DNA of 35,183 bases, taken from NCBI GenBank assembly GCA_022072445.1, contig JAJVHV010000036.1:1-35183 (forward strand), in the 5' to 3' direction. The position numbers and the translations under genes are program-made. Position 1 is the stretch's first letter. The number at the start of each line of letters is the position of its first letter. The DNA is from Phycisphaerae bacterium (GTDB lineage: Bacteria > Planctomycetota > Phycisphaerae > UBA1845 > Fen-1342). The notes beneath the pieces are model-generated. The model saw only the letters and a program-made list of their open reading frames with translations, did not search any database and had not been told where the DNA came from. Below, piece after piece: positions 3,258 to 30,564 of this stretch.

Positions 3258-4012
3258 GGGATTTCCGCAGTGCGCGCCATCGCGGCGCGGTCGGTCATGT
3301 CAAAACGCAGCGGCGTCACGGTGACAAAGCCGGATTTCATCGCGTGATAATCGCTGTCCGGCTCCTGGTCGGCCTTCGGAAAGCGGCCGTCCAGCCAATA
3401 GACCGTCCCGCCCCGCGCGTCCGTCTGTTTGTAGTAATACTCTTCCATCGTCAGCGTCGCCTGCGGGCAGACGCGCAGCCCGCGCGGCGGACCCGCGTCC
3501 AGCGCCGGAATGTTCACGTTCAGGCACGCGCCGCGCGGCGGCTTGCCGGCGATGTACGCGTCGAAAATACGCCGCGCGATGGCGCCCGCCCGGTGAAAAT
3601 CCAGCTCTTCCGAGAGCTCCAGCGAGAATGCGATCGATGGCACGCCGAAAAACGCCCCCTCGACCGCGCCGGCCACCGTGCCGCTGTAAAGCACGTTGAT
3701 CGCCGTGTTGGCCCCCGCGTTGATCCCGCTCACCACCACGTCCGGCCGGGCCTCCAGCAGCTCGTGCATCGCCAGCTTCACGCAGTCCGCCGGCCGTCCG
3801 TCCACGCTCCAGCCGTAGAACACGTTGTTCACGTGCACGCGGTGGACGTAGATCGGCGTCTTGACCGAGATCGCGTGGCCGACCGCCGACTGCGTCGTCT
3901 CGGGCGCCACGACTTCCACCTCGCCCGCGCCGCGCAGCGCCACGTACATGGCTTCGATTCCCGGCGCCATGATGCCGTCGTCATTCACCAGCAGGATCCG
4001 CATCGGTGGCAT
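3236..4012 (-). CDS. surE: 5'/3'-nucleotidase SurE
   Basis: SurE is a cytosolic metal-dependent nucleoside-monophosphate phosphatase linked to stress and stationary phase. The protein is 258 aa, normal for the family. The signature MRILLVNDDGI, with its metal-binding Asp pair, is at the N-terminus. Further marks are APETTQSAVGHAIS, VDGRPADCVKLA, and VVSGINAGANTAINVLYSGTV. The open frame starts at MPP; the fourth codon (ATG at 4003) fits the family start better, and no strong ribosome-binding site separates the two. It is the first gene of a two-gene minus-strand operon with the ChaN-like lipoprotein. It diverges from the zinc-ribbon gene at 4072, with less than 100 bp between starts for both promoters. 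Confidence 0.95.
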   Translation of the reverse strand: MPPMRILLVNDDGIMAPGIEAMYVALRGAGEVEVVAPETTQSAVGHAISVKTPIYVHRVHVNNVFYGWSVDGRPADCVKLAMHELLEARPDVVVSGINAGANTAINVLYSGTVAGAVEGAFFGVPSIAFSLELSEELDFHRAGAIARRIFDAYIAGKPPRGACLNVNIPALDAGPPRGLRVCPQATLTMEEYYYKQTDARGGTVYWLDGRFPKADQEPDSDYHAMKSGFVTVTPLRFDMTDRAAMARTAEIPWPDTFA

Positions 4013-5601: not shown

Positions 5602-5704
5602 CGCGGCACTCCTGAATTATAACAATATTGCTATGGCGGGTCAAGCCGACCCTGCGGCGTGTTTATCGCACGTCGGCGGCATGGGCAAGCGAGGGCGTCG
5701 CCCA

Positions 5705-5801: not shown

Positions 5802-6563
5802 CTAACGGATGTCGGGCTTGTCCGGCCGAAGCACGCTGAGCCCGAAGAACTGGAAGAGACGGTTCGCAACGTCGAGCCGGATGTTCTCACGCGTCCCGTT
5901 CAGGAAACGATTCAGTGCCGATTGGTCCACGCCGGCACGAAGCGATATCTGATTGACGCTAAGGCCACTGGCCTTCGCTGCAAGGCGGATGTGCTCGGCA
6001 ATGCCGACGGCTCGGCGGGGTTCGACGGTCTTCCGCCGAGCCGCTCTGCGGTGCCTCGCTCCCTTGCCATAATCGACCAACTCGACACGTCCCTGCCGGA
6101 GAGCCTCAAGCGTAGCGTGAGCAAGCTGCGGCCGCGACCATTCCAAAGCCTCACGGTCCAGCTTTGATGCCTTGCCCAGCCGCACTGCCTTGTCGATGCA
6201 GTAGGCGACGTACTTTCGTGCCCTATCCGTCTCCCTCTTCGGAACAGCTACGCCATGCCGACGAAGAGCGTCATGTGCATAGAGTTCCGCTTCCAACTCC
6301 CGGCGGTGCGACGGCTTTGAGCCGACATGATTAAGAGCGATGTGGGCACACTCGTGGGCGAGGATGTACAAACGTCGCCGGGTTGTCGGGTCGGGACAGG
6401 TGACGTGTTGCCTTTTCGGCCAAGCACGTCCTCGAAGCCCGCTGGTGTGAAACTCCCATGTCTGGCAACCGGCCTCTTTCAGGATTGCGAGGCCGATTTC
6501 GCGAAATCGCTCGGCTGCATCCCTCCTGGCTTGTTCAAGTTCGACGGCGTTTCTTTCCCTCAC
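5802..6563 (-). CDS. ImmA/IrrE-type zinc metallopeptidase with C-terminal XRE HTH
   Basis: This is a predicted cytosolic peptidase of the ImmA/IrrE (COG2856) group. Known members cleave partner repressors in response to DNA damage or mobile-element cues. The 253-aa protein has the zinc site HECAH (about residues 70-74, in YILAHECAHIALNH) and a downstream acidic helix RRELEAELYAHDAL that supplies the expected third ligand. An XRE-type HTH lies at about residues 190-235 (AAKASGLSVNQISLRAGVDQSALNRFLNG). Peptidase first and HTH last is the reverse of the order I regard as common. The start is GTG at 6563 without a clear Shine-Dalgarno site, so it is uncertain. It is the last gene of a three-gene cassette behind the SMC-like ATPase, 82 bp away. 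It may be effector, regulator or both. Confidence 0.85.
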   Translation of the reverse strand: MRERNAVELEQARRDAAERFREIGLAILKEAGCQTWEFHTSGLRGRAWPKRQHVTCPDPTTRRRLYILAHECAHIALNHVGSKPSHRRELEAELYAHDALRRHGVAVPKRETDRARKYVAYCIDKAVRLGKASKLDREALEWSRPQLAHATLEALRQGRVELVDYGKGARHRRAARRKTVEPRRAVGIAEHIRLAAKASGLSVNQISLRAGVDQSALNRFLNGTRENIRLDVANRLFQFFGLSVLRPDKPDIR

Positions 6564-18627: not shown

Positions 18628-18678
18628 GGGAGCCCCGACGCTGAACGGGTGCTCCCAATCGCTTCGTGCGTGAGTGCC

Positions 18679-18866
18679 GTTCCCAGCCGAGCCCCGAGTT
18701 GCGTTCCCAGCCGACTCCGAGTTGCGTTCCCGGCCGACTCCGCTTTGCGTTCCCAGCCGACTCCGCTTTGCGTTCCCAGCCGACTCCGCGTTGCGTTCCC
18801 GGCCGACTCCGAGTTGCGTTCCCGGCCGACTCCGAGTTGCGTTCCCGGCCGACTCCGCGTCGCGTT
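18679..18866. repeat. Tandem array, ~23-bp unit
   Basis: Eight imperfect head-to-tail units begin GTTCCCAGCCGACTCCG or GTTCCCGGCCGACTCCG and end AGTTGC, CTTTGC or CGTTGC. The first unit is 24 bp with GAGCCCC in place of GACTCC. The array runs directly into the 33-bp core at 18867. It is open in several frames, but only because a 23/24-bp repeat lacks stops; no gene is called. Confidence 0.9.
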
Positions 18867-19025
18867 CCCAGCCGAGCCCCGACCGTAAGGGAGGGGTTCA
18901 ACCGAAAGTTGCCATCGTTGAACTCACAATGTCGTTGCCCGCCGATCGGAGCTGACGCCGAACTTCGCCGAGTCCGTCGGCGTCTGTCGTTCGAACCCCT
19001 CCCTTACGGTCGGGGCTCGGCTGGG
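18867..19025. repeat. 33-bp core element in inverted pair
   Basis: The 33 bases at 18867-18899 (starting CCCAGCCGAGCCCCGACC) recur exactly as the reverse complement at 18993-19025, separated by 93 bp of non-repetitive sequence. A 30/33 copy lies at 27160-27192. The pair could form a long stem. Each core arm runs outward into its own tandem array. Confidence 0.9.
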
Positions 19026-19303
19026 GGCGCCCGCTACGGTCGGGGCTCGGCTGGGGGCGCCCGCTACGGTCGGGGCTCGGCTGGGGGCGCCCGCTACGGT
19101 CGGGGCTCGGCTGGGGGCGCCCGCTACGGTCGGGGCTCGGCTGGGGGCGCCCACTACGGTCGGGGCTCGGCTGGGGGCGCCCGCTACGGTCGGGGCTCGG
19201 CTGGGGGCGCCCGCTACGGTCGGGGCTCGGCTGGGGGCGCCCACTACGGTCGGGGCTCGGCTGGGGGCGCCCGCTACGGTCGGGGCTCGGCTGGGGGCGC
19301 CCC
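19021..19303. repeat. Tandem array, exact 30-bp unit
   Basis: Nine complete units start CTGGGGGCGCCC and end GGTCGGGGCTCGG, followed by a tenth degenerate one. The fifth and eighth units carry ACT instead of GCT; all others are identical. The unit includes the last 20 bases of the 33-bp core plus a GGCGCCCGCT linker. It lies 50 bp upstream of moxR and could affect its transcription. The open frames through it are repeat artefacts. Confidence 0.95.
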
Positions 19304-27046: not shown

Positions 27047-27089
27047 GCTCCGGCGCAGGCAAACAACCTATCCAAACCGCAGTGGCAGC

Positions 27090-27192
27090 AACGCGCCGCC
27101 GAGCGCCGCGCCCAGCCGAGCGACGCGCCGCCGAGCGACGCGCCCAGCCGAGCGACGCGCCCAGCCGAGCCCCGAGCGTCAGCGAGGGGTTC
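27090..27192. repeat. Degenerate array plus 33-bp core copy
   Basis: Short units of the form CCGAGCGACGCGCCCAG or CCGAGCGACGCGCCG repeat from 27090, then lead into a 33-bp core (27160-27192) that matches the one at 18867 in 30 of 33 positions. The order array-then-core is the same as at 18679-18899. The surrounding gap 27047-27424 shows no gene; 27220-27424 shows nothing else identifiable, and presumably holds the sigma-factor promoter. Confidence 0.85.
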
Positions 27193-27948: not shown

Positions 27949-28689
27949 ATGCTGAAACGGCAGATTCAAGACTATTACCGGAGCCTGCGGCCGTCGCCCG
28001 CGACCGGCGAGCGGCTGCGAAAGTCCGCGTCTGCCGCATCGCCCGCGGACTTCGTCGCCGCACCGCCCGCGGACTTCGTCGCCGCATCGCCCGCGGACTT
28101 CGTCGCCGCACCGCCCGCGGAACCGGCCGCCGCGCTGCGGCCTGCCGCGGCGCAGCGGCGGCCCGGTTTCGGCTTGGCCCTGTTTGCGGCGGCGGCCGTC
28201 CTGGCGGTGTTCGCCATCGGCTACAGCACCGGCCGCCGCGGCACGCCACCCGCGGGCGGAGTGCCGCCGCCTGGCCCGGCGATCGCGCTGACCGACGGGC
28301 CGCCGCCCGCCTCGACGCGGCCGAGCCTCGAGCCGCGGCTGGTGCTCTTCAAGATGCACGCCGACTGGTGCCCGCGCAGTCCGAAAGTCGCGCCGATCTT
28401 TCAGGAACTGGGCGAGAAATTCGCCAACGAGCCGGTGCTCTTTGTGACATTCGACATCACCGACGCGCCGCGCCAGCGACAGGCCATGCTGCTCGCAAAA
28501 TCGCTGGGAATCCTCGACCAGATCGGTGATCACCGCGGCGAGATGATCCGCATGGAGCCGGGGCTGATCCGCCTCGTCGATCGTCACGCCGCCGAGATCG
28601 TCTGCACGCTCCGCGAGCGCGGCGAACAGCCCGAGTTCGAAGCGGCCCTGGCTCACGTGCTGCCGCGCCAGCCGCGCGGCGAGCCGTAG
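27949..28689 (+). CDS. Membrane protein with periplasmic monothiol thioredoxin-like domain (putative anti-sigma)
   Basis: The 246-aa protein has a short cytosolic N-terminus (MLKRQIQDYYRSLRPSPATGERLRK), then a three-fold repeat of SPADFVAA/PPADFVAA (about residues 30-58, encoded by exact 24-bp DNA repeats near 28040-28118). A single membrane helix (GFGLALFAAAAVLAVFAIGYS) and a Pro-rich linker follow. The outer domain looks like thioredoxin: LVLFKMHADWCPRSPKVAPIFQELGEKF, then LFVTFDITDAPRQRQAMLLAKSLGI. The active site reads WCPRS, so it has one cysteine, not CxxC. The tight spacing after the sigma gene and the topology suggest an anti-sigma factor or sensor; no ZAS zinc motif is present. Redox sensing is inference. 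Confidence 0.72.
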   Translation: MLKRQIQDYYRSLRPSPATGERLRKSASAASPADFVAAPPADFVAASPADFVAAPPAEPAAALRPAAAQRRPGFGLALFAAAAVLAVFAIGYSTGRRGTPPAGGVPPPGPAIALTDGPPPASTRPSLEPRLVLFKMHADWCPRSPKVAPIFQELGEKFANEPVLFVTFDITDAPRQRQAMLLAKSLGILDQIGDHRGEMIRMEPGLIRLVDRHAAEIVCTLRERGEQPEFEAALAHVLPRQPRGEP

Positions 28690-30246: not shown

Positions 30247-30564
30247 CTAGAAGTCGTCGTCGTCGTCGTCGACTTCGAGCTCGCTGTCGTCGTCATATTC
30301 TTCAAGTTCTTCGTCCAGGTCTTCCTCGACGTCGTCGTCCTCTTCCTCGAATTCTTCGTCGTCGTCGACTTCAGCGTCGTCTTCTTCCTCGTCGTCTCCC
30401 CGGGCGCAGCGCGGCTCGAGGTGAAAGGAGCTGCCGGGGTCGGAATCGAGCAGAACGTGAGCGAGGCGACGTCCCCAGTAGTCGGCGAGCAGCGACTCGA
30501 TGCGCGATTCGAGCAACGCCACGCGAAGCACTTCGCAGCGTGCGTTCAGCGATTGGGCGGACAT
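30247..30564 (-). CDS. Small protein with extreme acidic tail
   Basis: The 105-aa protein starts MSAQSLNARCEVLRVALLESRIESLLADYWG, a helical head of about 45 residues. A Gly/Arg hinge follows, then a tail of about 50 residues almost wholly Asp and Glu (GDDEEEDDAEVDDDEEF to the C-terminal DDDDDDF). ATG 30564 with AGGAG seven bases upstream supports translation and rules out the longer frame to 30756. The plus-strand frame over the same bases is its shadow. Acidic tails of this kind occur on DNA-mimic, histone-chaperone-like or cation-binding proteins; no function is assigned. It is convergent with the FG-GAP gene; the gap 30094-30246 shows no gene. Confidence 0.72.
   Translation of the reverse strand: MSAQSLNARCEVLRVALLESRIESLLADYWGRRLAHVLLDSDPGSSFHLEPRCARGDDEEEDDAEVDDDEEFEEEDDDVEEDLDEELEEYDDDSELEVDDDDDDF

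Follow-up and report, generated by a model that had tools for sequence, protein, structure and literature searches.

The window, that is, the whole stretch of DNA analysed here (35,183 nucleotides of a Phycisphaerae bacterium, contig JAJVHV010000036.1 of assembly GCA_022072445.1), contains three copies of a 33-bp core, each adjoining a tandem array. Two copies form an inverted pair that lies between a zinc-ribbon gene on one side and a MoxR-type AAA gene on the other, and the third is also intergenic, with PEPCK and a sigma-factor gene as its neighbours. The arrays were delimited with TRF, and the features are as follows, where the foot is the 5' end of the hairpin described below.

18678–18875, + strand: left array, 23-bp unit × 8.6, on the foot (5') side of the + core and overlapping its first bases; the unit reuses CCCAGCCGA of the core
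18867–18899, + strand: 33-bp core, foot CCGA and hairpin with stem CCCC/GGGG, G·A/A·G step, inner 2-bp stem and loop GTAA
18900–18992, no strand: 93-bp spacer separating the two inverted hairpins, without a transposase gene
18993–19025, − strand: 33-bp core, inverted copy, foot outward
19005–19302, − strand: right array, 30-bp unit × 9.9, on the foot (5') side of the − core; 21 core bases in the unit
27087–27170, + strand: third array, 17-bp unit × 5.2, on the foot side of the third core; 11 core bases in the unit
27160–27192, + strand: third core, 30 of 33 positions as in the first, with a compensatory change of C-G to G-C in the inner stem; it starts 113 bases past the PEPCK stop

Comparison of the copies confirmed the initial annotation, in that the two 33-mers of the pair are identical in sequence and mutually inverted and the third differs from the copy at 18867 at three positions. 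When up to 3 mismatches were allowed, a 28-base part of the core was found at 3 places in the window and at 0 across 100 shuffles. The proposal that each unit consists of the end of the core and a linker also held, with 9, 21 and 11 core bases reused per unit in the 23-, 30- and 17-bp arrays, all starting at the 5' end of the core. As had been described, the three arrays lie on the same side of their cores, which is the 5' side on the hairpin strand, and those of the inverted pair run outward from it. A CRISPR array was rejected as an explanation of the window arrays, the units of which repeat whole, linker included. A scan of the window against Rfam gave 0 matches at the gathering score, and a tRNA scan of the window found none. 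Two more tandem repeats in the window, at 28028–28133 (24 bp × 3.9, within a long open frame) and at 30307–30397 (15 bp × 6.1), have no core.

The core hairpin and class 3 transposases

Read 5' to 3', the plan of the core is a foot CC-GA(G), a stem CCCC/GGGG, a G·A/A·G step, an inner stem of 2 bp and a loop GTNA. The stem covaries across 31 distinct copies from the genome, with 160 of 186 cells pairing compared to a shuffle mean of 139.6 and maximum of 151; the covarying changes are CCCC/GGGG to CCGC/GCGG and, in the inner stem, C-G to G-C. The foot was conserved, CC preceding GA in 143 of 146 genome copies. The folding energy was weakly better than that of shuffles (z −1.05 to −1.90), which is weak evidence by itself. 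Across the genome of 5.25 Mb the core pattern occurs at 372 places at ≤2 mismatches (168 on the + and 204 on the − strand), with 0 places for the reversed-pattern control, and the CCGC/GCGG form of the core at 132 places at ≤1 mismatch, the exact ones being also within the 372. Hairpin copies were seen in the first 300 bases of contigs 7, 12, 27 and 46, so that the assembly seems to be broken at these elements and the true copy number is probably higher.

The CCGA foot agrees with that published for the class 3 TnpA_Y1 transposases, to which the accessible part of PMC6006769 ascribes 'atypical secondary structures' with a CnGA foot. The GTAG or CGTC tag of the REP superfamilies was absent from the palindrome end, as judged by the foot letters of the 146 genome copies. 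A text search of the literature with the hairpin letters listed matches that look unrelated by title. Named genomes were scanned with five class 3 sequences, giving 307 relatives of which the best 80 were used; counts over these named loci use 79, one with a match of 682 bases (L153) having been left out. Among the best 80 of 307, the closest named relatives of the class 3 transposases were mostly in Planctomycetota. Hairpins of the same plan, with any complementary stem, were then counted within about 300 bp of the class 3 genes. At the 79 named loci (from the best 80 of 307), 34 upstream hairpins pointed feet-out and 7 feet-in, while downstream these numbers were 30 and 16, and feet-out hairpins were present at both gene ends in 20 of the 79. 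Only 12 hairpins of the plan were found in 527,933 background bases, so that about 1 would be expected near the genes. A model of the class 3 TnpA (54 rows, pLDDT 84.7) was compared with the PDB, and all 28 of 28 matches at E ≤ 0.001 were IS200, IS608, ISDra2 or TnpA_REP structures. The core is therefore best explained, from the evidence of sequence, as the recognition hairpin of a class 3 TnpA_Y1 (HUH, IS200/REP-like) transposase system, with binding and cleavage by TnpA putative; this identity had been missed by the initial annotation.

Three loci carry near-identical class 3 genes and similar hairpins on contigs labelled as different proteobacteria (L202, from a MAG labelled Legionella sp., L180 and L203), reflecting either transfer or a binning error.

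The arrangement of the window pair recurs in this genome. Neighbouring hairpins on opposite strands within 260 bp of one another, at spacings of 80–206 bp, were feet-out in 17 pairs and feet-in in 5; a single cluster (L058) contains 6 of the feet-out and all 5 feet-in pairs, leaving 11 feet-out and 0 feet-in elsewhere. The window pair was aligned with 15 other feet-out pairs, L058 being left out and the core rule slightly different, and was 76–83% identical to three of these (L042, L063 and L049) and 58–64% identical to the other twelve. Since feet-out pairs recur and align with it, the window pair, two inverted hairpins with feet outward and 93 bp between them, is best read as a REPIN-like element that has no transposase.

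Foot-side arrays and their origin

The arrays were surveyed in 48 stretches, comprising ~3% of the genome, which were chosen to include the first 100 places on the list as well as the Y1 loci and the copies in the window. These stretches contained 143 cores at ≤3 mismatches, of which 58 were solitary, having no same-strand core within 160 bp. A 5' (foot-side) array was present at 24 of the solitary cores and a 3' array at 0; at 1 the array ran through the core and 33 had none. The 24 arrays come from 16 stretches and are not all independent. Over all 143 cores there were 44 with a 5' array and 1 with a 3' array, this core having a 5' array as well, while 429 random sites in the same stretches gave 8 and 7, respectively. 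The arrays at the 24 solitary cores end between core positions −7 and +19, where the rule permitted up to +26, indicating that the 3' arm of the hairpin is left out of the arrays. Sharing between the unit and the 5' end of the core exceeded the 95th percentile of shuffled units in 25 of the 44 foot-side arrays and did not in 19. In the 10 arrays long enough for the comparison, similarity between neighbouring units was higher for the inner than for the outer units in 8 and lower in 1. The whole core, too, is repeated in tandem in this genome, with periods of 68–69, 107–109 and about 139–149 bp. The hairpin is linked to one-sided tandem growth in this genome, and the link is reproducible.

Near the named class 3 genes of other genomes, where the array-side count covered all 80 loci, 99 solitary hairpins were found, with a 5' array at 11, a 3' array at 7, arrays on both sides at 1, running through at 2 and no array at 78. 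Four relatives (G004, G007, G016 and G037; 20 loci, 33 cores) had an array at 0 of 22 solitary cores and a 5' array at 1 of 11 clustered cores, and the feet of their cores are unlike the foot of this genome. Hairpins of two of these relatives (G007 and G016, at L021, L022, L024, L027 and L030) have a foot ATCA or similar and form tight inverted pairs ~35–50 bp apart, without arrays. The one-sidedness of the arrays is not general but holds at the solitary cores of this genome. The claim that arrays always grow on the same side is accordingly retained for these cores and given up for other genomes, where arrays near class 3 genes lie on either side, the very observation that the initial annotation had named as speaking against its claim. 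Its suggestion of local amplification seeded by a dispersed element fared better, agreeing with the locus-specific linkers, the 24:0 ratio at solitary cores and the sharing of core bases in 25 of 44 arrays, and disagreeing with the other 19.

The account preferred here, to which a probability of roughly 0.7 is given, combines a class 3 hairpin, a REPIN-like window pair moved in trans and arrays formed by tandem duplication through stalled synthesis. Copies without a transposase, such as the window pair, would presumably have been moved in trans as single-stranded DNA by a class 3 TnpA, and the only two intact class 3 proteins found in the genome are located in frame inside alaS. After insertion, the adjacent flank together with the foot and the 5' arm may have been duplicated in tandem at the 5' edge of the hairpin, so that the linker of each array would be specific to its place and represent the original flank. 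The likeliest cause of this duplication would be DNA synthesis that stalls and slips at the hairpin. A simple stall at one edge does not predict the either-side arrays near class 3 genes elsewhere (11 vs 7), and the 33 of 58 solitary cores that have no array, as well as the 19 of 44 arrays in which sharing between unit and core stays within the reach of shuffled units, count against the account.

The arrays could alternatively be made by the transposase itself, if TnpA, guided by CnGA, nicked 5' of the hairpin and the 3'-OH primed repeated re-synthesis of foot and linker. The 3'-OH left by HUH enzymes can serve as a primer for replication, and cleavage by TnpA_REP falls on the 5' or the 3' side of the hairpin, according to the portion of PMC8266576 available; the foot is repeated in many units and arrays border intact transposase inserts. 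However, a transposase gene is not adjacent at most of the array loci read and the foot is not clearly repeated in the units of 19 of 44 arrays, making this route unlikely. A chance association, in which a dispersed repeat happens to neighbour unrelated tandem repeats of the ordinary kind and unequal recombination shaped both, would suit a genome that is GC-rich, rich in tandem repeats and in possession of whole-core tandem arrays. It is highly improbable given that 5' arrays occur at 44 of 143 cores vs 8 of 429 random sites, where they are not one-sided, and that the units share the 5' end of the core in 25 of 44 arrays. The chances are similarly slim that the hairpins spread because they serve mainly as RNA elements, namely terminators or stabilisers of mRNA, or as small RNAs. 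The window copies are intergenic, as are most REPs, which lie near the 3' ends of genes according to the text seen of PMC3733652, but the window has no Rfam match, copies are also located inside open frames, and the same hairpin plan marks the ends of transposase genes in many genomes.

Transposases in frame inside other genes

The intact class 3 transposases found in this genome have an unusual location. This genome gave 10 matches to Y1_Tnp and, with 12 of 76 first-look candidates scored, three matches to the class 3 profile at E ≤ 1e-15. Two are intact (motifs NHVH and YVLEGQ) and are both contained in one open frame of 1686 residues, an alanyl-tRNA synthetase and the only alaS found in the genome; the third, on C5, is partial and belongs to another subfamily. 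Both AlaRS inserts (L064) are bordered by feet-out hairpins, one by the CCCC/GGGG form at 5655 (+) and at 6251, 6344 and 6437 (−), each slightly changed, and the other by the CCGC/GCGG form at 3444 (+) and 4109 (−). PurH and a class I synthetase of this genome (Pfam tRNA-synt_1 and DUF5915; IleRS by reading) also carry Y1 domains in frame, of another type (Y..NP). An AlphaFold model of an AlaRS-transposase fusion (L149, 8 rows) gave a pTM of 0.36, with a pLDDT <50 for residues 296–332 and 484–511 around the insert. A group I intron or IStron at the in-frame inserts was rejected because the frames are continuous, and the Pfam matches of the scanned fusions (thresholds 1e-3 or 1e-5) included no intein or Hint domain. 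A class 3-like frame at L078:3612–4883 (G000 contig 5) has an internal array of ~13–14 residues per unit between the HUH motif and the C-terminal part.

Long frames were read in 27 genomes of the family. PurH contains a Y1 domain in frame in G000, G007, G013, G018 and G024 (in G024 up to the contig end), and in G010, G011, G012 and G016 the Y1 insert was recognised from its HUH motif by eye. Further in-frame Y1 domains were found in IleRS, as identified by reading, of G000, G008, G010, G015, G016 and G019 (the G019 frame containing a run of X), in ValRS of G015 and in GcvP of G015 and G019. By reading, a single PurH site holds two types of transposase, Y..NP in G000 and G024 and class 3-like in G007, G013 and G018, the insert of G018 having lost its HUH motif. 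Two genomes of the same genus differ at this site, with a 243-residue insert carrying the HUH motif in G016 vs 7 residues in G041; G042, G005 and G002 have 8, 11 and 23 residues there, G014 has 50 that lack the motif, and the remaining genomes gave partial frames only. The Y..NP (class 2-like) domains occupy the same places in housekeeping enzymes across several genomes of the family (PurH at L077 and L305–L308, class I synthetases at L081, L118, L122, L125 and L126, GcvP at L123 and L124) and have arrays of their own, with units such as GSIGVPPV or SAKLRFAPPAS.

Among the named class 3 loci (best 80 of 307 relatives), 18 of 79 were embedded, 10 in closed frames and 8 in frames running to a contig end, although this sample leans towards embedded copies since three of the five query rows were themselves embedded. 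The hosts were AlaRS (8), ValRS or other class I synthetases (5), DUF1156 proteins (3) and type ISP restriction enzymes (2). Long frames ending 28 and 3 residues past the domain (L141 and L147) were left uncounted, as was a 676-residue frame in G312 with no host recognisable by eye. When 294 genomes were drawn evenly from the phylum, 36 had class 3 transposases, at 84 places. A recognised host enclosed 4 of the 84 (two in G000, one in G240 and one in G333, a single-contig genome), indicating that most class 3 genes stand alone. The catalytic motifs of 21 embedded copies were largely kept, HxH in 21 of 21 and Y-x4-Q in 19 of 21; of the remaining two, L151 has YVWDQ and L143 is cut by a contig end. 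At 18 of 18 named embedded loci, the strand and frame of the transposase are shared by the listed host matches, which were taken from within 700 bases and numbered up to six on each side; since the queries were embedded hosts, this comparison is blind to insertions in other genes.

A quick tree of 82 rows, in which 34 of 79 inner branches are unresolved and near-copies help to lower the count, needs 5 changes of the embedded label vs ~18.7 in shuffles, with 0 of 500 shuffles as low. The reading suggested by this tree is that embedding belongs to a few lineages and probably did not arise by random capture. Array periods were divisible by three in 53 of 62 cases inside 32 embedded frames vs 15 of 37 other foot-side arrays of this genome; some of the 62 are not next to a hairpin, and repeats in coding sequence often preserve the frame in any case. 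Among the titles listed from the open-licence literature there was no report of whole transposases in frame inside essential genes.

It is proposed tentatively, at slightly less than even odds, that certain transposases of class 3 (and other Y1 transposases) maintain themselves by residing in frame within genes for essential enzymes, in an intein-like manner without splicing and with arrays as linkers. If so, a cell that lost the transposase or acquired a frameshift in it would die, while the enzyme would remain at the service of hundreds of hairpin elements, the window pair among them. Foot arrays inside such genes would grow mostly by multiples of three and surround the transposase domain with flexible linkers. 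Such a way of life would answer the question of what saves single-copy RAYT-like genes from extinction, an answer that could be tested directly on the transposases with intact motifs in AlaRS, ValRS, other class I synthetases and PurH. The fusions would also be a natural case of essential enzymes bearing a foreign enzymatic domain. The repeat itself gains an identity as the DNA mark of a little-studied transposase class, and the embedded transposases are in our view the part most worth following.

Inteins are in-frame residents of essential genes. The embedded transposases have this residence in common with them, and differ in that the Pfam matches hold no intein domain and splicing is not suggested.

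Class 3, CnGA hairpins, REPINs, tandem REPIN clusters and in-frame REP hairpins are all in print, as seen in the consulted parts of PMC6006769, PMC3116915 and PMC3733652. For foot-only arrays no text was found among the matches listed from the open-licence literature, and the word 'tandem' is absent from PMC6006769. The portion of PMC3116915 at hand describes REPINs that resemble the window pair, being units of two inverted hairpins with hundreds of copies and few transposase genes, and it describes tandem REPIN clusters that include flanks. REPINs and RAYTs differ in having a GTAG foot and a class 2 transposase, compared to the CCGA foot and class 3 transposase found here, and the present arrays, unlike the clusters in that text, can consist of foot and linker without a complete hairpin. 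The class 3 TnpA_Y1 of PMC6006769, so far as its available text goes, shares with the present system the NHVH HUH motif, the YV...Q tyrosine motif, CnGA-foot hairpins beside the gene and hundreds of copies; that text is silent on foot-side tandem arrays, class 3 REPIN-like pairs and transposases in frame within other genes. REP hairpins and Rickettsia palindromic elements, which also occur in frame inside genes, are alike as mobile hairpins translated within housekeeping proteins, tRNA synthetases included, and in the accessible part of PMC3733652 it is hairpins alone that are located in the gene, whereas here a whole transposase domain with its catalytic motifs is situated between two hairpins.
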